From assembly GCF_002356555.2 (NCBI RefSeq), contig NZ_AP017372.2:1652501-1716500 (forward strand): 64,000 nt of DNA, written 5' to 3'. Each line of letters begins with the position of its first letter. The first letter of the stretch is position 1. Source of the DNA: Halorhodospira halochloris (GTDB lineage Bacteria; Pseudomonadota; Gammaproteobacteria; Nitrococcales; Halorhodospiraceae). The translations under genes were made by a program, and so were the position numbers. Under the pieces are notes generated by a model. That model had not been told where the DNA came from, ran no database searches, and was given only the letters and a program-made list of their open reading frames with translations. Below, piece by piece: positions 23,305 to 63,740 of the stretch.

Positions 23305-23449
23305 ACCTCTAAAACTCCGCCGGCGCCACCATCTGCCCCGGTGCGGAGGACGCCGTGAATCCATCCCTGGAGGCTTCATGGCGCCATCCCTGGCGCCAAG
23401 ACCTCCACACCGGGGCAGATGGTGGCGCCGGCGGAGTTTTTTTGAGGCG
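23305..23449 (+). repeat. palindromic element, complete copy
   Basis: A 145-bp copy between convergent genes. The left arm (23305-23349) and right arm (about 23402-23449) match almost perfectly over 44 bp: the middle is CCGCCGGCGCCACCATCTG and the core side CCCCGGTGYGGAGG. The core is in plus orientation and nearly identical to the copies at 11291, 44889 and 52518. The right end has a run of seven Ts. Confidence 0.94.
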
Positions 23450-54332: not shown

Positions 54333-54878
54333 ATGCGTTGCACCCGTCTTAAATTCATTGTCATTGGTAGCGCTTTAGCTATGAGCACTCCGGTCAGCAG
54401 CTTTCAAATTGTTCATGAAGTCTATATAGGTGTCGGAGCAATGCCTTGGAATTATGAAGGGGAACGTGACGAAACCTCGGCAACAGGGGGCCGCTTGATA
54501 GCCGGAACGTTACTTACCGATAGATTTGGTATAGAGGCCCATTTCGGTATGTATGGTGAAGATAAGGTAAGCTTACCTGCAAAAGTGAGGATAGAGCTTG
54601 ATTCTCTGGATGGCGTTTTCTTGAGGCTTAACCAGCCCTTATTTGAATATTTTAATGTTTATACTCTAGCTGGGTTCTCGAGTGTGCAGATGATCGTCTC
54701 TCCCGAGGAGGCTGGCGCCGAAGAAGACGCCCCGACCGCTTCTGGATTTAGTTTAGGCGCAGGAGCAGAAATAAATCTCGGCGATCACTATGCGGTGGGT
54801 ATTGATTATGTCCGCTATCTAGATGAGCCGGACTTCATGTTTCAGGCGGTAACTTCATCACTAAAATGGCGCTTCTGA
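54333..54878 (+). CDS. porin-like outer-membrane beta-barrel protein
   Basis: A 181-residue protein with a signal peptide (about residues 1-22, cleavage near SSFQ). It shows alternating beta strands (EVYIGVGAMPWNYEG, GFSLGAGAEINLGDHYAVGIDYVRYL) and a C-terminal ending SLKWRF whose terminal Phe is the outer-membrane-barrel assembly signal. The size fits an 8-stranded OmpA/OmpW-like barrel. AGGAG lies 9 bases upstream of the ATG. It is convergent with the curli locus and may or may not be related to it. Confidence 0.8.
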   Translation: MRCTRLKFIVIGSALAMSTPVSSFQIVHEVYIGVGAMPWNYEGERDETSATGGRLIAGTLLTDRFGIEAHFGMYGEDKVSLPAKVRIELDSLDGVFLRLNQPLFEYFNVYTLAGFSSVQMIVSPEEAGAEEDAPTASGFSLGAGAEINLGDHYAVGIDYVRYLDEPDFMFQAVTSSLKWRF

Positions 54879-54940: not shown

Positions 54941-55591
54941 TTAATTAAATTCTTGCCTAACTGAGATATATGAACCTACTGCACCGTTCTGCCGAACATT
55001 TATCTGATTGCCATCGCCAATCTGATCTATTTCAACATTATGTGCAACTGCACCTACCTGTTCTAAGCTCGCCTTGTTATCATTGCCATACTGATTGACC
55101 GTAGCTCTATGCCCGCCGTTACCTGATTGAATTATCTCGCTCCAATTGTTGTTACCTTGCTGCACTAATGCTGCGTAATGCCCCTCGCCGCTTTGCTGAA
55201 TGTAGGCGATATTATCCCGACCGTACTGCTCAATAGATACCCAGTGCTTTTCGCCAGTCTGTATTACACTTGCCCAGTTACCATCCATACTGCCGGGGGC
55301 TGGAGCATTGCTTGTACTATGATCAATATTACTGCCGATATACAACTCAGGGGCAGCTAGATCTCCTTCACCTATGCCCGAGAGTTCATAAGCCCAAACG
55401 GCTGCCGGGGCCAATAAGATCACCACTAACAACAGCACCAGGGTAATAGCGCCTGCCGATACACAAGGGCGCCTCGAAAAACTCCGCAGGCGCGGTTGGT
55501 TACCCCGCTGTTGAGGTCGGCACCCACAAGCTTGCTCAGAAAAGCCCAACAATAGGGCAATATTGTTGTCTTCATGCCAGGCACGCCTCAC
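54941..55591 (-). CDS. csgB: CsgB-like curlin subunit (N-terminus altered by repeat)
   Basis: A 216-residue secreted protein with curlin repeats in the C-terminal half: ASVIQTGEKHWVSIEQYGRD, IAYIQQSGEGHYAALVQQGN and VEIDQIGDGNQINVRQNG follow the QxGxxN curlin rhythm. Only about five repeats are seen, and the position after csgH with a divergent tail suggests the minor nucleator CsgB rather than the major subunit. The start is a GTG that overlaps the csgH stop (GTGA). Residues 24-44 (RPQQRGNQPRLRSFSRRP) are encoded by a solo arm of the palindromic element, so an unusually long basic stretch precedes the signal-peptide core (TLVLLLVVILLAPAAVWA). Confidence 0.8.
   Translation of the reverse strand: MRRAWHEDNNIALLLGFSEQACGCRPQQRGNQPRLRSFSRRPCVSAGAITLVLLLVVILLAPAAVWAYELSGIGEGDLAAPELYIGSNIDHSTSNAPAPGSMDGNWASVIQTGEKHWVSIEQYGRDNIAYIQQSGEGHYAALVQQGNNNWSEIIQSGNGGHRATVNQYGNDNKASLEQVGAVAHNVEIDQIGDGNQINVRQNGAVGSYISVRQEFN
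55470..55520 (-). repeat. palindromic element, solo arm inside the csgB-like gene
   Basis: About 50 bp match a complete right arm on the minus strand: CCTCAACAGCGGGG, a variable middle, CTGCGGAGTTTTTCGAGGCG. It is in frame within the csgB-like gene and directly precedes the signal-peptide core. No core or partner arm is present. Confidence 0.8.
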
Positions 55592-56031
55592 CTAACTTGC
55601 ACCTCTTGCTGATAAGTCTCGCTAAGACGTAGCTCTTCCCCCTCCGGGGTAACTAATGTCAATTTAGCCTCGAAGCGCGCCTCCCCCTGTTGTCTCATGC
55701 TTACCGTTGAAAGAACGCGGTACGTAGAATCAAGTTGCTTCGATCCTCCCTGGCTAGTGCTGGACTCACCAGAAACACCGCTAGCAGATACCTTGATCCT
55801 GTACCTCACCTCAATCGGATCCTTCGCTCTGGCCTTAGGCTGAATGAGTAGGCCATAATCCTCGCTGCTTAGGAATTCTATTTTAGCCTCTATGGGATCG
55901 ATATGGCTCATCTCCGCCGCAACCGTATTAGACAGTGCCTTACCAATTAAGGATGCGAATAGCATGATAGCTAGGGCGATTCTCTTATGAGCCTTGTTTT
56001 TAAGTAACGCGAAGGCTCTGATCCTGCTCAT
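55588..56031 (-). CDS. csgH: curli assembly chaperone CsgH-like
   Basis: A 147-residue exported protein. A signal peptide with a basic n-region (about 1-35) precedes a beta-sandwich domain. IEAKIEFLSSEDYGLLIQP, YRIKVSASGVSGESSTSQGG and RFEAKLTLVTPEGEELRLSE follow the CsgH pattern, whose role is to hold curlin soluble in the periplasm and block premature fibre formation, in place of the CsgC of enterobacteria. It lies between csgA1 and csgB, and its stop overlaps the csgB start. Confidence 0.8.
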   Translation of the reverse strand: MSRIRAFALLKNKAHKRIALAIMLFASLIGKALSNTVAAEMSHIDPIEAKIEFLSSEDYGLLIQPKARAKDPIEVRYRIKVSASGVSGESSTSQGGSKQLDSTYRVLSTVSMRQQGEARFEAKLTLVTPEGEELRLSETYQQEVQVR

Positions 56032-56142
56032 CTACGGTTAATCCCCATTTATGATCACAAAAACCCAGCTCCCCTAGCAGCTGTCTGAATGTAACAACCT
56101 TTACTACATATCTTCTACACTCCACCATCTTTATCCCTGACA

Positions 56143-56174
56143 CCATGAAACCTGCCTCCTTGCAAGTTTCATGG
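56143..56174 (-). promoter_or_regulatory. hairpin between csgA1 and csgH
   Basis: CCATGAAAC (56143-56151) and GTTTCATGG (56166-56174) form a perfect 9-bp stem with a 14-base loop, about 55 bases after the csgA1 stop. It could attenuate or stabilise the mRNA so that CsgH and CsgB are made in smaller amounts than CsgA (inference). Confidence 0.4.
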
Positions 56175-56227
56175 CAAATACACAAACATTTATAAACTAG
56201 CTCTTGACTTGCTTCCCAAACCTGCTA

Positions 56228-57592
56228 TCACTGCCGCTGCGTGAGGCTAGCTAGGTTTCCAGCACCATGCTGGGCTACTGTCATAAAACCATAGGAAGAA
56301 TCGACAGTGGTCAAATGATCCGTATAACTGGCATCGTTGGAGGTTATTATAGCTGACATGCCATGGCTAGGATTACCGAGATCACCGGCATGAAACACTC
56401 CGTGAGAACCGTTGCCACCCTGAGTAATACTTATCATATCTCCTTCATAACCATCCAGATGGACCTCTGCATGCTTGTTAGCACCTAACTGCAAGATTTC
56501 CATGCCGCCATGTTCAGACCCTATAGTGGTAGTGTGATCAGTTTCTACACCGGCATTGGACTGAACTGAGCCCGTGACCATTTCTCCGTCGGCGAACAGA
56601 TCAGCAAATGAACCCTTGCCTACCTGCTTCAGGAGATCAATACCAGCGCCATTGATCGTCGTAATATTAGCAACATGGCTGGAATTGCCATCTGCTGCCC
56701 TATCATCAGCAAGCTGCATTACAACAACTCTGCCTTTATCCGAGCTAACATGAGAGACGTTTTCATTCCCGTGCTGCTCTACGTAGATGTCTGCCCCTCT
56801 CCACGAGCCGCCGGTTCCAATTAAATCAACTAGATTATCATTGCCCAGCTGGAGAACATTCCCTTTAAATGAGAAGAGCTCCTCCGCAGTGCCTACATTA
56901 GCCTCATTGTTATTGCCAACCTGTTTGACATCTGCAGGATTGGCACTGTTTATATATAGGCGAGATATGTTGTCATCTCCCTCTTGAAAAATATTCACGA
57001 TGTCATTGAAAGACCAGTGGGCACCAAGGAATGTTTGGTTTCCCGATCCAATCTGCTCTACTGTCACGTCGGCGTACTCCACGCCTGTGCTAGAGCCAAC
57101 ATCCAAATTCAGTTCTGCGCTATTATCTTGGCCATCCTGTCGAATTTCTCCACTGCCACCACGGCTAGCTATGATATCGGCGAAGTTACCAGAGCCGCTC
57201 TGCATGACATCCCAGGTGCTGTTTGAGTCGACTTCGATAGTGTTACCTTCACCGTGGGCGATGGTTGCTTGACCTCTAACTTCGGCCACTGCATCCCAAC
57301 TCGAATCGTAGCCATCCTGGATAAGTTTGACAGTGCCACGCCATTGTTCAATGGTTGCTGTGGCGCCAGAGATATCTTTTTGGAGGATTGTGGCTACTGC
57401 GTTATTTGCACCCACTTGCTGAGTAATAGTTGCCTTAGAACCGTGTGCGTTTAACTGATCAACCGTAGCTGTCTGATCTTCCCCGTACTGATTGATAGTG
57501 GCTTCTTGAAGATCGCTATTCGCAAGAATCGATCCAGCTCCAAAGAGCAGAGCCGCGGTAACTGTTGAGATATATGTCTTCTTCATGCGCAT
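56228..57592 (-). CDS. csgA: CsgA-like major curlin subunit 1
   Basis: A 454-residue secreted amyloid protein, about three times the length of E. coli CsgA. The signal peptide MRMKKTYISTVTAALLFGAG is nearly identical to that of csgA2. The mature part has many imperfect curlin repeats with the Q-G-N signature (ATINQYGEDQTATVDQ, ADVTVEQIGSGNQ, VLQLGNDNLVDL, ITQGGNGSHG, MTVAQHGAGNLASLTQRQ) interrupted by Asp/Ser-rich spacers. AGGAG lies 8 bases before the first ATG. It would be the main fibre subunit secreted by CsgG. Confidence 0.88.
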   Translation of the reverse strand: MRMKKTYISTVTAALLFGAGSILANSDLQEATINQYGEDQTATVDQLNAHGSKATITQQVGANNAVATILQKDISGATATIEQWRGTVKLIQDGYDSSWDAVAEVRGQATIAHGEGNTIEVDSNSTWDVMQSGSGNFADIIASRGGSGEIRQDGQDNSAELNLDVGSSTGVEYADVTVEQIGSGNQTFLGAHWSFNDIVNIFQEGDDNISRLYINSANPADVKQVGNNNEANVGTAEELFSFKGNVLQLGNDNLVDLIGTGGSWRGADIYVEQHGNENVSHVSSDKGRVVVMQLADDRAADGNSSHVANITTINGAGIDLLKQVGKGSFADLFADGEMVTGSVQSNAGVETDHTTTIGSEHGGMEILQLGANKHAEVHLDGYEGDMISITQGGNGSHGVFHAGDLGNPSHGMSAIITSNDASYTDHLTTVDSSYGFMTVAQHGAGNLASLTQRQ

Positions 57593-57684
57593 GTCTATTT
57601 CTCCTTGCTGAGGTAGAGTCTTACCGCCTTACCAGCGAAAACCCGAGTTAACTCGCTCTGCCCTGTCTTGATCTGCACACCTTT

Positions 57685-57718
57685 GCCATGGAGGCCACGA
57701 TTATGCGGCCCCCATGGC
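57685..57718 (-). promoter_or_regulatory. strong hairpin between csgA2 and csgA1
   Basis: GCCATGGAGGCC (57685-57696) pairs with GGCCCCCATGGC (57707-57718) apart from one A-C mismatch, with a 10-base loop. It lies 33 bases after the csgA2 stop and about 90 bases upstream of csgA1. It may end or attenuate transcription between the two curlin genes. Confidence 0.5.
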
Positions 57719-57750
57719 CATACGCAGCCTTAAATCAGTTTTGGGTCACG

Positions 57751-58718
57751 TTAGCTATGTGGCCGCTGCCCTGCCTGATTGACAGAAATATTGCCGAATG
57801 CACCACCATTTTGGTCGATGTTTACCTCATGCGCACTGCCATCCTGGTGAACGTTAATAAAGCCGTATCCAGTCTCAAATGTGGTTGTGTGGAAAGTATC
57901 TTCACCTTTGTTGGATGAAATAGTACCCGCCACCCCATCTGACACGGTCAAATCGGCACTGGAACCAACACCATCTTGTAGAAGATGGACTTCTGCATCA
58001 GCGTCATGGACAGCGAGTACCGCACTATGATTGTTCCAAAAACCTTGAACTGCACTTGCGTCAGTAGAATCGGTCTGAGTAATGCTAACTATGCTGTTAT
58101 CTCCAATCTGATGGAGTTCTGCAAAGGAAGCACTTACCCCACGCTGATCAATATTAGCTTCAGCGTTATTCGCATGTTGAGTGATAGAGGCATCGTTTTC
58201 ACCACGCATCTGGGATATGGCTGCCGTATTACCATTCCCCACTTGGTCTATATCGGCTGTGCTGATACCGGTGCCGCCTTGTTGTCTGATATCGGCTGAG
58301 TTTTCAGTCCCATCTTGAGCAATTGATGCGTTATTATTATTACCCCAGTACGCATCTCCAGCCTCATTGGCCCCATCAAAACCTTGTTGGGGGGCACCAA
58401 TGCTTGCTGTATTTTGACTTCCTTCTTGGATAATAGTCGCAAACTGTCCACCTTGCTGAACAATGCTAGCTGTGTGTCCCTCTCCGGTTTGGTCGATGGT
58501 GGCTTCACCACCAAATGTGCCGTGGTCATTATCCAGTGTTCTCTGTTCAATAGTGGCGACCAGTCCGCTTCCTGCTTGATCTACCGTGGCCTCGTGGCCA
58601 CCATCCCCTCTTGGGTAACATCGATTTGATTAGCTACGCCACTATCAGCCATGATCGCGCCGGCACCGAACAGCAGAGCCGCGGTAACTGTTGAAATATA
58701 AGTCGTTTTCATGCGCAT
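57751..58718 (-). pseudogene. CsgA-like curlin subunit 2, interrupted by a one-base frameshift
   Basis: The start at 58718 gives the signal peptide MRMKTTYISTVTAALLFGAG and about 38 residues, then the frame runs into TAG at 58583-58581. The next frame, entered after the run CCCC at 58605-58608 (GGGG on the coding strand), continues open to 57751 with clear curlin repeats (ASIAQDGTENSADIRQQGG, SFAELHQIGDNSIVSITQ, INVHQDGSAHEVNIDQNGG). One additional G in the run restores a 322-residue curlin. The length 968 is 3n+2, as expected for one lost base. This may be a real decay, a slippage switch or a sequencing error. Confidence 0.8.
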
Positions 58719-58980
58719 GTCTGTTAACCTCTAGTGTCAGTTCATGAATTGAGGCACTCATCAAGCTAGGCCCCACCAACGAGCCGCCATCAACACCCCC
58801 TTTTGCGTGATTTCCCACGGGTAGCGTGCAGTTACAAGTTATGCGCTTCGGGGGAAAAACTAAATCAGGAAGAGTTCGTAAATTGCAGTAAGATTTTAGG
58901 TTAGAGCCCATGTACAAGTTCTGAGGCAACACATAACAGCACTAATACTAAGGCGTGAGGCAGCATGCCGCACACATTTG
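58719..58980 (-). promoter_or_regulatory. promoter region of csgA2
   Basis: About 260 bases with no gene lie upstream of csgA2, between its start and the element at 58981. It is AT-richer than the coding parts and has a long upstream region like other csgBA promoters. I cannot mark individual sites with confidence. Confidence 0.4.
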
Positions 58981-59124
58981 CATAAAAAAACTCCCCAGGA
59001 TCCATTTAGCTAACTCGGTGTAGAGGCCTGCCACCAGGGATGGCACCAGAAGCCTCCAGAGATAGATTCACAGCGCCCTGCAAAACTTGGTAGCTAAATG
59101 GCTTTGAGGAGTTTTGGAGACTCC
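58981..59124 (-). repeat. palindromic element, complete but drifted copy
   Basis: The arms pair through CCATTTAGCTA with several mismatches elsewhere; the ends are AAAAAACTCCCC / GAGGAGTTTTGGAGACTCC. The core is in minus orientation with more base changes than in other copies (CCACCAGGGATGGCACCAGA). It lies between the diguanylate cyclase stop and the csgA2 promoter. Confidence 0.88.
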
Positions 59125-59132
59125 GTTTTTGC

Positions 59133-60590
59133 TCAAGCTATCCGCAGCACCTCGAAAAACTGCTGCCAGCTCTCTGAGCCATCATCGACGAACAGTCCGC
59201 CAATCGCCCAATAGCCATCAGTGGCACGGCTGTAGTGGGCAACTCGCAAGGGCAGGATATGCTCTTTTAACGGCTCATCAGTGATTCGTCGATCCTCTAT
59301 CAGCATGCGTACCTTAAAGCACTGCTCATTTTCCGGCGGCACCGGACTCTTCAGGCGTACCCCCAGACGGCTAATATCCTCGACAATACACTGTCGCCAA
59401 TCACCGTTGAGGGCTAAGATCTCTAACCCCAGCACCCGCCGTGGGGCATTAGTAGTGCTCAGCGTTACCGCATAGCGCGGGGCACGACGCCGGGTCGCCT
59501 CCACGCTCTCCTGCCATCCCCCATCAACCACGGAATTCCGTCCCGACAGCTTGCCAAGATAGAGGCGTCTATCAGCGATCTCGAGCAATTGGCCAATATC
59601 CTGGGCATCGTGCGGCACAGCTGCTACACCGACGGTTATAGTCACCATTAGCCTCTGCTCTTCGGGACCTGCCAAGATCGGCTCATCAGCCACAGCCCGG
59701 CGCACCTTATCGGCCGCAATAGCGGCATCAGTCGATGAAGTGTTGGGCAGCAGGACTATAAACTCCTCACCGCCATAGCGGCCAACCGTATCACTATCAC
59801 GCAATGCGCTGCGGATACGTGTTGCGACTATGCGCAGAACCTCATCACCGATACAGTGGCCGTAGGAGTCGTTTACCTCTTTAAAATGATCAACATCAAG
59901 GATCAGGGTCGAGAACTCAGTGCCGTAGCGCTGCTGCGTGCGTAAATGCTCTTCAATCTGTTCTTTGACATAGATCCTATTGTAGAGCCCCGTTAAGCCA
60001 TCACACAGCGACCCATAACGATACCCCTCGAGCACCTGCGCGCGGCTCAGAGCATGCCCCATATCCCTGGCCATCTCGGCAAAGAATGGCAACTCATGGT
60101 TGGCGAAACCGAGGCCCTGTGTCCGATGAAAGATGACGACGCCGATCACCTCGCCATCCAGTCCGAGCATGCGCTCAGCCAGGACCGTAGTCTGCGGCGG
60201 GATAGACTCAGCGGCCACATCATCCGGCCAGTCTTGGTCATGCTCAATGATCCACTGCCTTTCACTGAGTACCGCCCGGCCAGCGATACCCTGGCCCCAG
60301 GCAAGGCTATGACTGGGTGGATACCAGCTCGTAAGATCAGGATCAACATGCAGCAGTTCGACGCTCTGTTGCGGCCGATCTATAGCATATATTGCCAGAC
60401 CGTCTAGCTCGAGCAGGTCGCTGATCAATCTGTTGCCAGCCCTGACCACATCAGAGGTGTCGAGCGTGGTATTGAGCTGGCGGTTAAGAATAAATAGAAC
60501 ATAAACTTGGCTTAACTGATAACGCAAGTTCCCAGGAACATGGGCAATAGCTGCTGCATATCCATCTTCTTTTAGGGCATTAAGTGTCAT
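59133..60590 (-). CDS. GAF-GGEEF-PilZ diguanylate cyclase in the curli locus
   Basis: A 485-residue cytoplasmic protein: GAF domain at about 25-180, GGDEF domain at about 200-365 and PilZ domain at about 370-480. The active site reads GRYGGEEFIVLL and the inhibitory I-site RDSD lies five residues before it, so it should make c-di-GMP and be product-inhibited. The PilZ part begins RRRAPRYAVTLS, with EDISRLGVRL, which fits the RxxxR and D/NxSxxG ligand motifs in a slightly altered form. It sits between csgF and csgA2 and probably links c-di-GMP to curli output. Its ATG is 21 bases after csgF. Confidence 0.92.
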   Translation of the reverse strand: MTLNALKEDGYAAAIAHVPGNLRYQLSQVYVLFILNRQLNTTLDTSDVVRAGNRLISDLLELDGLAIYAIDRPQQSVELLHVDPDLTSWYPPSHSLAWGQGIAGRAVLSERQWIIEHDQDWPDDVAAESIPPQTTVLAERMLGLDGEVIGVVIFHRTQGLGFANHELPFFAEMARDMGHALSRAQVLEGYRYGSLCDGLTGLYNRIYVKEQIEEHLRTQQRYGTEFSTLILDVDHFKEVNDSYGHCIGDEVLRIVATRIRSALRDSDTVGRYGGEEFIVLLPNTSSTDAAIAADKVRRAVADEPILAGPEEQRLMVTITVGVAAVPHDAQDIGQLLEIADRRLYLGKLSGRNSVVDGGWQESVEATRRRAPRYAVTLSTTNAPRRVLGLEILALNGDWRQCIVEDISRLGVRLKSPVPPENEQCFKVRMLIEDRRITDEPLKEHILPLRVAHYSRATDGYWAIGGLFVDDGSESWQQFFEVLRIA

Positions 60591-60611
60591 CGTTCCCCCC
60601 TCATCAGCCCC

Positions 60612-61043
60612 CTACCTCCCGATGGTAAATTCGGTCTCTCTGCCTGTCATTGGATCACGAGTTATGATCTGCAACTGACCATCCTCGCGCTCTTGAATAT
60701 CTATCTCAAAGTCGCCAGCCTGGATAGGCTCATCGAGCGGCTGCAAGCGCCCATCCTCATCAAGGATACCGATATTTCGTCGAACCCCAGTGGTTATCTG
60801 GTGCATAATGGAGCGCTGCAACTGGTCCTCAAAGCGTTCCTGCTGCGAGCGAATCTGGCGCCGGGCAGCCTCTTGTGGGCTGCGCGTTGTGTCCTGGGCC
60901 TGCGCTTGATTTAGATGCTGCATTTGAACGCTGGCGTTTGCGCTATTAGGCCGGTAACGCAACTCTGCCACCAGGCTACTACTCCATGCTGTAAACAGCA
61001 CCGAGATTCCGGTTAAATATAGCCCACCCCAAACTAATCGCAT
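60612..61043 (-). CDS. csgF: curli assembly protein CsgF-like
   Basis: A 143-residue exported protein. The signal peptide ends near SSLVA, leaving ELRYRPNSANASVQ, which resembles the CsgF N-terminus that docks inside the CsgG pore. Further CsgF-like parts are HLNQAQAQD, ERFEDQLQRSIMHQI and ITRDPMTGRETEFTI. CsgF anchors the CsgB nucleator at the cell surface. It lies 22 bases below csgG and 21 bases above the cyclase. Confidence 0.85.
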   Translation of the reverse strand: MRLVWGGLYLTGISVLFTAWSSSLVAELRYRPNSANASVQMQHLNQAQAQDTTRSPQEAARRQIRSQQERFEDQLQRSIMHQITTGVRRNIGILDEDGRLQPLDEPIQAGDFEIDIQEREDGQLQIITRDPMTGRETEFTIGR

Positions 61044-61064
61044 CCTGTTCCCCCCCAGTTTTGC

Positions 61065-61958
61065 TTAGCCACCCTGCCCAAGCCGCTGTCTATGTTGCAC
61101 AAGGTAGGCTTCAATTATCGGATGATCAAGATCTTCAGAATTAGCCAACCGCCAGTGGTTATCCACCAGGCCGCGCACGATCAGATGTATTACCGCAGCA
61201 CTTATTGCATCGCTGGTAGCCAGCAATCGCGGTTCATTGAGGGTATAGCCACCTTCAGCATCGAGCAGGCGCTGGTGCCGAACGAATCTGAACAGCCCAC
61301 CGGATACCTTATAAGAGTAGATGGTCTTGGTGGTTGTAACGCTAACTAGCACCATACCATTCTCAACATTCACCGCTCGCAGATTAACCGTTACCTGGTC
61401 AATCTGATACTCCTCACTTGCCCCCAGACCGAAGTAGCGCGCCGCTACCCCGCCAGTTGTTAAAGCTCGGTCGTAACCAACTATACCGCCCTCGAACAGA
61501 ACCCGCGCTTCCTGCAATGCAGCCACATTATCACGCAGTTGCCGAGCCACCCGACGCTCAGTCAACAGATCTTGCAAACCCTCGCGCTCTATTGGTTGAA
61601 ACCACCCCGACTCCAACAGGGCCTCGGTCAGGATAGCCCCGCCTCCCTGAGTAACCGCGGTAGACAGGTTGCTATGCGGCTGTTCACGGTACTGTCCTGT
61701 CATATCGCGAAACCCATATACTGCCGCAGGAATACGTCCTGCTGGCGATGGCAACTCAAGCAAATCGCCAAAGGTTTGGGTGTTCATACCTAGTTGTGGA
61801 CCTTCAACATCATCCCACTCCGGGGTTGCGTCAAAGCCCAAATAAGTACAACCAGACAACGCCACAAGCACCCATCCCACAATAAACACTATAACGAGCG
61901 ACTGCCTTTTCGCCTCTACTTTTAAAGCACCCTGAGACGCTCTACTTAGCGGCATCAT
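61065..61958 (-). CDS. csgG: curli secretion channel CsgG
   Basis: A 297-residue lipoprotein with lipobox ALSGC (about residue 36). Family blocks are LPSPAGRIPAAVYGFRDMTGQYR, STAVTQGGGAILTEALLESGWF, IEREGLQDLLTERR and YEEYQIDQVTVNLRAVN-like text (EEYQIDQVTVNLRAVNVENG). CsgG forms the nonameric outer-membrane pore for curlin export. ATG codons at 61958 and 61955 are both possible; the gene overlaps the end of the small upstream ORF. Confidence 0.93.
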   Translation of the reverse strand: MMPLSRASQGALKVEAKRQSLVIVFIVGWVLVALSGCTYLGFDATPEWDDVEGPQLGMNTQTFGDLLELPSPAGRIPAAVYGFRDMTGQYREQPHSNLSTAVTQGGGAILTEALLESGWFQPIEREGLQDLLTERRVARQLRDNVAALQEARVLFEGGIVGYDRALTTGGVAARYFGLGASEEYQIDQVTVNLRAVNVENGMVLVSVTTTKTIYSYKVSGGLFRFVRHQRLLDAEGGYTLNEPRLLATSDAISAAVIHLIVRGLVDNHWRLANSEDLDHPIIEAYLVQHRQRLGQGG

Positions 61959-62141
61959 CGGGAAAGCGCGTAAAATGGTGCTGCTTATCTCGGTCTAATT
62001 GCTGCATGTGTCTATTCGGATCCTGCTGACTAAGCTGATAGGAAAACCAGGCGTTAGCTACGCCGCCCCCGCCCAAGACAAGTAATGCTCCAAAAAAAGC
62101 ACCGCACCGTCAGATCTTTTAACTTTTATGGCGGATTTCAT
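61942..62141 (-). pseudogene. small membrane-protein ORF between csgE and csgG, interrupted by a frameshift
   Basis: An ATG at 62141 overlaps the csgE stop (ATGA). Translation gives MKSAIKVKRSDGAVLF and then runs off frame to TAG at 62060-62058 (27 residues). One extra T in the seven-T run (A run at 62092-62098 on the plus strand) restores a 66-residue protein with a membrane or signal segment (LFFGALLVLGGGGVANAW) and a polar tail (QDPNRHMQQLDRDKQHHF) that ends at 61944-61942, inside the csgG start. The length is 200 bases, 3n+2. The tight coupling to both neighbours supports a real gene. I know no named Csg protein like it. Confidence 0.6.
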
Positions 62142-62857
62142 AGCTCCTCCCCAGCTAAATCAGGATCATAGCCGCCCATAAATCTTTGAGCTACGCGCTG
62201 AGCAACTCGATCCGTCACTGGTGATATAGCTGCCTCAGCTACTTTTTCGGGTGATGGCTTATGTGGGCGTACATGCGCTGAAAACATCACTTGGCGTTCG
62301 TATACTACTCTGATCAGAGTGCCTTGATTAAAGGCCGGTTGCTCCTCAATTGTCAGCACTCCGCGGATGTCATACACCCCATGAGCACTCCACAACGAGC
62401 TGAACTCCCTGTAGAAACGATCACCAAGATGGGTAGTAGTCCGCCGTATCACAACATTACTTAGAGCATCTGCAAGGCCCTCTTGGACTCGCTCCAAGGG
62501 AGCCAAGCTCTCTAATGGCTTCTGCTCTGACTCAAACCCCTGAGCAGGCGTGATTACGACGGCTACGCATAAACCTAGCCCTGTGGTTATACACCTGCGC
62601 CAAACTACAACGGATGCCGTCCGGAGCGCATTTAAAAACTTCCCCCAGGGTCTCTCTAAAAACTCCGCCGTTGAGCCTAGCTGCCTTGGTATGGAGGGCT
62701 CTGTAAATCCATCACCGGAGGCTTCATGGCGCCATCCTTGACGCCAACACCTCCACGCCAAGGCAGCTAGGCTCAACGGCGGAGTTTTTAGAGAAGTCCT
62801 CCAAGACGGCCTAACTGATGCGTCATACAAGACAACATTAGTAGTCTTTGAAGACAT
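62138..62857 (-). CDS. csgE: CsgE-like curli secretion factor with repeat-encoded N-terminus
   Basis: The last ~150 residues match CsgE: a signal-peptide core (TTGLGLCVAVVITPAQG), then VVIRRTTTHLGDRFYREFSSLW and VLTIEEQPAFNQGTLIRVVYERQVMF. CsgE caps the CsgG pore and directs curlin to it. The native start is gone: no ATG, GTG or TTG occurs in frame between the palindromic element (62649-62798) and the signal peptide. The frame is open through the element and through an older element end at 62628 to an ATG at 62857 inside csgD, so a protein with about 75 extra residues is predicted. Whether it is made or exported is unclear. Confidence 0.75.
   Translation of the reverse strand: MSSKTTNVVLYDASVRPSWRTSLKTPPLSLAALAWRCWRQGWRHEASGDGFTEPSIPRQLGSTAEFLERPWGKFLNALRTASVVVWRRCITTGLGLCVAVVITPAQGFESEQKPLESLAPLERVQEGLADALSNVVIRRTTTHLGDRFYREFSSLWSAHGVYDIRGVLTIEEQPAFNQGTLIRVVYERQVMFSAHVRPHKPSPEKVAEAAISPVTDRVAQRVAQRFMGGYDPDLAGEEL
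62628..62648 (+). repeat. palindromic element, older solo end
   Basis: GCATTTAAAAACTTCCCCC matches the outer end of the family (GCCTCTAAAAACTTCCCC). It abuts the complete copy at 62649, which suggests that a newer copy landed next to, or inside, a decayed one. Confidence 0.65.
62649..62798 (+). repeat. palindromic element, complete copy inside the csgE 5' region
   Basis: The arms pair perfectly over 36 bp (CTCTAAAAACTCCGCCGTTG, then AGCCTAGCTGCCTTGG). The core is in plus orientation with several changes (ATCACCGGAGG, CCTTGACGCC). It lies 40 bases below the csgD stop and is open in the csgE frame. Confidence 0.94.
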
Positions 62858-63596
62858 TTTGGCGAGCCCACATAGCCGCTTCGACCCGATTGCTTACTCC
62901 GAGTTTGCGGTAAAGATTATAGATATGCGTTTTAACCGTATGCTTGCTTACGTAAAGCTTAGTAGCGATAGCTTCATTACTTGCGCCTTCACCGAGAGCC
63001 TTGAGCACAGCAAGTTCTTTCTCGGTAAGTAAATCAACTTGTTGACTTTCAAAAGGCCTGCTGTACTGCTTGCGGGTTCTATCGAGATAGCGATGCAGTG
63101 CTACGCGAGGGAACCAGTACTCGCCACTCAGCATCGCATCTATCCCTCGTATAAGTTGCTCTGGGGAAGCATCTTCGCGAAATATCCCAACTAAACCATC
63201 TATGCGCAGATAGGGCTCTACATTCATGCCTAGTGGAATGTTGATCAATGCCGAAAAAACTTTTTGCTGTGCCAGCGCAGACAGGCCCTGCACAAAATAT
63301 AAGCTTTCTAACTCAAATCCAGTAGAGCATGTATCGACAAGCAACAGAGCTGGCGCATTTTTGCGCACGTATGCCTCTAATTTTTCAATAGTAATAGAAT
63401 TGCAGTTACAGGCCAGCGACGAATTGATATGCTCAGCAAGTAACAGATTGTGTAGGCCTTCCTGACCAACTAGGTAGACTAAGGGCTTTTGACTCACATC
63501 ACTTTCTCCAACCCCACCAAAAACGTAACCATGATGTTTGCTGCCTCTCTCCTGGTCCAGTAGCGCAAAAACTGCCCCCCCCGCTTCTACCCGCAT
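62838..63596 (-). CDS. csgD: CsgD/VpsT-like LuxR-family regulator
   Basis: A 252-residue regulator. An N-terminal receiver-like domain (about 1-150) lacks an obvious phospho-acceptor. It is followed by GEYWFPRVALHRYL, similar to the W[FLM][TS]R c-di-GMP-binding motif of VpsT with Pro in the third place. The C-terminal LuxR helix-turn-helix reads LTEKELAVLKALGEGASNEAIATKLYVSKHTVKTHIYNLYRKLGV. The ATG at 63596 has GGAGG 8 bases upstream; an upstream extension to 63698 is unlikely. Position at the head of the csg genes supports a CsgD role, namely activating curli transcription. Confidence 0.85.
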   Translation of the reverse strand: MRVEAGGAVFALLDQERGSKHHGYVFGGVGESDVSQKPLVYLVGQEGLHNLLLAEHINSSLACNCNSITIEKLEAYVRKNAPALLLVDTCSTGFELESLYFVQGLSALAQQKVFSALINIPLGMNVEPYLRIDGLVGIFREDASPEQLIRGIDAMLSGEYWFPRVALHRYLDRTRKQYSRPFESQQVDLLTEKELAVLKALGEGASNEAIATKLYVSKHTVKTHIYNLYRKLGVSNRVEAAMWARQNVFKDY

Positions 63597-63740
63597 GGCT
63601 TCATCCTCCAGGATCAACAGTTTAGATCGAAATTTGCCGTCTACACAGGTCAAACTAACCACCTGGTAAGTATAGTTCAAATGCCACACAAAAAACACAA
63701 CATATTAGTTTCAAAAAAATGCCTTACACCACCCCCAAAA

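Follow-up and report, generated by a model that had tools for sequence, protein, structure and literature searches.

A diguanylate cyclase gene within a rearranged curli locus of Halorhodospira halochloris

A stretch of 64,000 nucleotides from Halorhodospira halochloris (contig NZ_AP017372.2, positions 1,652,501 to 1,716,500), here called the window, was analysed for its curli locus and for a diguanylate cyclase gene that lies among the csg genes. The genome consists of a single contig of 2,834,560 bases. Pfam and NCBIfam profiles placed csgD, csgE, csgG, csgF, the cyclase gene, csgA2, csgA1, csgH and csgB in this order on the minus strand, all within 54941-63698. The features of the locus, in the direction of transcription, are:

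62838 to 63596, minus strand: csgD, LuxR/VpsT-like biofilm regulator (ATG at 63596, alternative start of the open reading frame at GTG 63698)
62655 to 62790, no strand assigned: copy of a dispersed palindromic repeat, separating csgD from the csgE domain
62138 to 62857, minus strand: csgE, periplasmic adaptor of the type VIII secretion system (conserved domain about 62147-62461; Pfam CsgE 64 bits)
61065 to 61958, minus strand: csgG, outer-membrane secretion channel (Pfam 202 bits)
60612 to 61043, minus strand: csgF (Pfam 41 bits), 21 bp after csgG
59133 to 60590, minus strand: diguanylate cyclase with GAF, GGEEF and PilZ domains, separated from csgF by 21 bp
58985 to 59125, minus strand: copy of the dispersed palindromic repeat, a terminator-like hairpin with U-run, between the cyclase gene and csgA2
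57751 to 58718, minus strand: csgA2, curlin-repeat gene with a frameshift, the repeats being in the open part
56228 to 57592, minus strand: csgA1, candidate major subunit of 454 amino acids with curlin repeats (Pfam Curlin_rpt 51 bits)
55588 to 56031, minus strand: csgH, CsgC/CsgH-type amyloid inhibitor (NCBIfam NF041112 46.7 bits)
54941 to 55591, minus strand: csgB, minor curlin or nucleator, overlapping the csgH stop (Curlin_rpt 62.8 bits)
54333 to 54878, plus strand: outer-membrane beta-barrel (OMP) gene, convergent, at the end of the locus (Pfam OMP_b-brl 61.5 bits)

CsgG, CsgE and CsgF all scored over their Pfam cut-offs, as expected for the channel and accessory proteins of a curli or type VIII secretion locus, and csgA1 and csgB carry curlin repeats, as does csgA2 in its open part. 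The best NCBIfam CsgB score of csgB, 54.6 bits, was under the cut-off. CsgD was recognised by its LuxR helix-turn-helix domain (66 bits) and by the NCBIfam CsgD model (109.9 bits), and the csgG of the window is the only full csgG of the genome. The gene content and single strand described in the original prediction were therefore confirmed by the profiles, as was the position of the cyclase gene inside the locus; its csgA2 proved not to be intact, and the small open reading frame that it placed between csgE and csgG cannot be upheld.

The cyclase has a GGDEF domain of 160 bits with a GGEEF active site, as in diguanylate cyclases, which form cyclic dimeric guanosine monophosphate (c-di-GMP). 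An I-site is present in the arrangement RDSD-TVGRY-GGEEF, with RxxD five residues before GGEEF. At the C-terminus, the PilZ motifs RxxxR and DxSxxG were found. The PilZ profile scored 19.2 bits in the window, below the Pfam cut-off of 22.5, and 28.5 and 30.7 bits in two orthologues; with both motifs present and the orthologues over the cut-off, the domain was assigned as PilZ. The GGEEF site, the R and D of the I-site and the PilZ motifs are kept in both orthologues. The intact GGEEF and I-site and the PilZ domain proposed earlier were all borne out. The AlphaFold model of the cyclase, with a predicted local distance difference test (pLDDT) score of 54.6, was too poor for a fold search or for PilZ assignment.

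For comparison, loci were gathered from named genomes through relatives of CsgG and from genomes of the order, class and phylum through similarity to CsgF or CsgG, giving 121 loci including the window, and profiles built for the purpose served to annotate their surroundings. The window was the only locus with a GGDEF gene between csg genes (0 of the 120 others). It was also the only one with the order csgE-csgG-csgF: csgE-csgF-csgG was found in 110, and the position of csgG before csgF, on which the original prediction did not remark, is the reverse of every other locus with these three genes in a row. The cyclase is thus not conserved inside csg loci, and the arrangement, whose confinement to one strain would have counted against the original prediction, was confined to one strain within this sample. 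When GGDEF genes were placed at random over the 449 kb of csg spans, at the GGDEF density of the flanks or of the window's own genome, 2.3 or 3.2 were expected inside them and one was seen. As a single embedded cyclase is not above chance, it gives no evidence of a functional tie. An enrichment of GGDEF genes near csg loci was considered and rejected, with 12 in 2.31 Mb (one per 192 kb) against about 20 in the 2.83 Mb of the window's own genome (one per 142 kb). In one csg locus of a Vibrio (L036, 10813) and one of a Pusillimonas (L093, 14186), the csg cluster ends directly against a convergent GGDEF gene, overall not above chance.

The co-directional layout, which had been set against the divergent operons of enterobacteria, is real and is also the common arrangement: curlin and CsgG genes could both be located in 116 loci, and in 90 of these they run in the same direction. 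Co-directional csg operons have been described from Aeromonadales and Oceanospirillales, and single operons from Alteromonas (Dueholm 2012, PMC3521004). The presence of CsgH held in a similar way: the protein scored over the NF041112 cut-off of 35 (Pfam CsgH 16.2 bits, below the cut-off of 27), and CsgH in gammaproteobacteria has already been reported (Taylor 2016, PMC4838910). In the literature collection searched, no paper combined csgH with GGDEF. Neither co-direction nor a gammaproteobacterial CsgH is new, which leaves the embedded cyclase as the one unusual part.

Within the order, 54 genomes were examined for full-length orthologues of the cyclase, and these were found only in two congeners, at 42–44% identity. 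No csg genes were found in either of these congeners, whose genomes are 77–83% complete, nor near the cyclase orthologues. Six genomes of the order contain CsgG, and that of the window alone combines CsgG with the cyclase. In both congeners the orthologue adjoins a Cu/Zn superoxide dismutase gene, sodC (L151, 6344-9123; L152, 162-2374), a hint of an oxidative-stress input. In the genome of the window, GGDEF genes number about 20 and EAL domains at least ten, and in such a setting one extra cyclase need not be specific to curli. No phosphodiesterase gene was found in the curli locus. Just beyond the right end of the window (L021, 12385-14975), a VKOR-family gene is found together with another GGDEF gene, both divergent from csgD. 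This second GGDEF gene lies about 1.6 kb upstream of csgD and encodes 401 amino acids with a membrane-spanning N-terminus and a GGDEF domain of 136 bits.

Besides the window, a csg locus was found in five further genomes of the order (G003, G032, G793, G795 and G796), G003 being the only other genome of the same genus in which curli were found. All these loci have the order csgD-E-F-G-A-H-B facing a convergent OMP gene, and none has a cyclase. The CsgG of the window is 66–72% identical to those of the same order, its CsgF up to 46%, with the congener locus L019 closest, and its OMP 41–49%. As all three proteins are of this clade, the exchange of csgF and csgG and the arrival of the cyclase seem to have taken place within this lineage, and csgF does not appear to come from outside. 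The 47 plasmid-borne matches to CsgG were all below 60% identity. The OMP gene, which the original prediction did not mention, belongs to the conserved, ancestral locus. It faces csgB in all csg loci of the order examined (L019, 1909-2481; L020, 5142-5762; L022; L266-L268), was found in none of the other csg loci examined outside the order, and is a candidate clade-specific curli partner.

Several parts of the locus show frame problems. The frame that starts at the ATG of csgA2 (58718) reaches a stop at 58581, and the body with the curlin repeats can be read in a different frame. The change of frame falls within 58583-58629, where the signal-peptide frame and the curlin-repeat frame do not join, and csgA2 is probably a pseudogene or a sequence error. 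For csgE, a listing of codons gave in-frame NTG codons only in or before the palindromic repeat at the 5' end, which leaves its start ambiguous. The interval between csgE and csgG (61959-62137) holds no more than short open pieces in differing frames and had no match to any profile or sequence; a csgF remnant in this gap was considered and rejected, the CsgF profile giving about 0 bits.

The palindromic repeat, with ends AAAACTCC and GGAGTTTT and a long hairpin, is present in at least 42 copies in the genome, including those at 58985-59125, 62655-62790 and 23311-23440. One congener gave three weak partial matches, and the 11 other relatives searched gave none; the element looks like a miniature inverted-repeat transposable element or a terminator-like repeat that has multiplied in a single species. 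In the copy after the cyclase gene, a U-run follows the long hairpin (−57.2 kcal/mol, z −4.05), a structure that would work as a terminator does, suggesting that csgG-csgF-cyclase and csgA are separate transcripts. Both 21-bp gaps, between csgG and csgF and between csgF and the cyclase gene, contain a G-rich sequence resembling a ribosome-binding site, and such spacing suggests that the cyclase is probably on one message with csgG and csgF. Scans for sigma-70 promoters and terminators gave no more than shuffled sequences did, and no c-di-GMP riboswitch or other Rfam RNA was found in the locus.

A link from c-di-GMP to curli could run through CsgD. The best sequence match of the window CsgD in the PDB was VpsT (3kln, E=2e-22), and the best fold match of its AlphaFold model was VpsT with c-di-GMP (3klo, E 5e-16). 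WFPR in the window CsgD aligns with the c-di-GMP motif WLTR of VpsT; compared with the motif W[F/L/M][T/S]R listed in PMC10333796, it matches at W, F and R and has P at the third position. A CsgD-like protein was present in 93 loci; it had W[M/L/F]SR in 39 of them, W-x-P-R in 14 and YFS[Q/H] in seven, and all CsgD proteins with the last motif lie in loci of divergent enterobacterial organisation. The CsgD proteins of E. coli and Salmonella do not bind c-di-GMP (PMC10333796). Since most non-enteric CsgD proteins keep the W..R signature of VpsT, in the form W-x-[S/P]-R, and those of enterobacterial type have YFSQ or YFSH, binding of c-di-GMP by CsgD, and with it a direct control of curli, may be widespread outside the enterobacteria. 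For the CsgD of the window, c-di-GMP sensing is plausible.

The locus belongs to a known kind; it is rearranged and in part damaged, and it has taken up a cyclase. As no other curli locus examined has an internal cyclase, a local rearrangement accounts for it better than a new self-regulating fibre system, and we consider it reasonably probable that a cyclase, apparently a working one, was captured behind csgF, in this species specifically, in an otherwise ordinary halophile curli locus. The ancestral plan would have been csgD-E-F-G-A-H-B facing the convergent OMP gene, as in halophilic Halorhodospira relatives. In the species of the window, csgF and csgG would have changed places and a second csgA appeared, the genome-wide palindromic repeat would have inserted at two junctions, and the GAF-GGDEF-PilZ cyclase gene would have been captured directly behind csgF. 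Made from the csgG-csgF message, the cyclase would produce c-di-GMP when its GAF domain senses a signal, with its own I-site and PilZ domain holding it in check. The product would feed the common pool of the cell and may strengthen the VpsT-like CsgD, a possible feedback, while csgA would probably be transcribed apart, given the hairpin after the cyclase. Three points weigh against this account: the species was compared through one genome only, the curli genes of the two congeners with orthologues may be absent merely from their incomplete assemblies, and orthologues of such low identity could be old paralogues.

The cyclase could instead be dedicated to curli. CsgD would then switch on the locus including the cyclase, and local c-di-GMP would bind the WxxR of CsgD in a positive loop ended by the I-site and PilZ domain. 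The tight csgG-csgF-cyclase spacing, the intact catalytic, I-site and PilZ motifs, VpsT as the nearest match of CsgD by both sequence and predicted fold, the retention of W and R of the c-di-GMP motif, and the second GGDEF gene close upstream of csgD all speak for this, and local dedicated cyclases exist elsewhere, as in DgcJ-NfrB (PMC8669469). Yet we hold it unlikely, as the arrangement was found in one of 121 loci and is not above chance, the orthologues are not linked to curli, the third motif position of CsgD is P and not T or S, the locus has no phosphodiesterase, and a hairpin separates the cyclase gene from csgA. Rather doubtful, too, is the wider claim that cyclase and CsgD form a locally wired positive loop by which curli in a phototrophic halophile are gated by c-di-GMP at the CsgD protein, unlike in enterobacteria, and that such gating may be the usual state outside them. 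The parts needed for a c-di-GMP link are at hand, namely an apparently competent cyclase 21 bp behind csgF and a VpsT-like CsgD. The self-contained c-di-GMP-gated amyloid module of the original prediction is not supported, in view of the same rarity, chance level and unlinked orthologues, and the broken csgA2, the hairpin before csgA, the missing phosphodiesterase and the many genomic GGDEF genes weaken it further. Should the cyclase control curli after all, this would be a rare curli locus carrying its own second-messenger enzyme.

It is also improbable, in our judgement, that the curli genes of this strain are in decay and that the cyclase is a chance passenger, whose function is unrelated and whose retention has nothing to do with curli. 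The csgA2 frameshift, the ambiguous csgE start, the repeats at two junctions, the near absence of curli from the genus and the sodC neighbours of the orthologues fit such decay; however, csgD, csgG, csgF, csgA1, csgH, csgB and the cyclase gene have open frames, csgA1 retains curlin repeats in 454 amino acids, and the frame problems may be sequence errors. That the order of csgG before csgF, the cyclase insertion and the frameshifts are partly an artefact of assembly or sequencing seems very improbable. Two or three apparent frame problems do fall within a few kb, and dispersed repeats flank the csgE-csgG-csgF-cyclase block, but misassembly is unlikely at repeats of about 100 bp and 70–80% identity and would not put csgF and the cyclase gene 21 bp behind csgG, and the neighbouring genes of the window are long and uninterrupted. 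A captured cyclase in a locally rearranged locus remains the preferred reading.

Among the closest known systems, the loci of the same order share with the window the genes, their strand, the position of csgH and the convergent OMP gene; they differ in lacking the cyclase, in having csgF before csgG and a single csgA, and in that the palindromic repeat is absent or nearly so from the relatives searched. The co-directional loci of Aeromonadales and Oceanospirillales (PMC3521004) share CsgD as a separate regulator, CsgE, CsgF, CsgG and curlins on one strand, whereas the window differs by its csgE-csgG-csgF order, internal cyclase, CsgH and two long csgA genes, one of them broken. As for CsgH (PMC4838910), the window protein, encoded between csgA and csgB, agrees with the NCBIfam model but has no cysteine at all and hence not the sequence-distant disulphide that tells CsgH from CsgC, unlike the disulphide-bonded CsgH and CsgC of the literature. 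VpsT, the c-di-GMP-binding LuxR-type regulator of Vibrio cholerae, is the best match of the window CsgD in sequence and fold, but regulates exopolysaccharide in Vibrio and not curli. With the soluble diguanylate cyclases of the PleD/WspR class, the window cyclase shares GGEEF and the RxxD I-site (118 bits to PleD), to which it adds an N-terminal GAF and a C-terminal PilZ domain.

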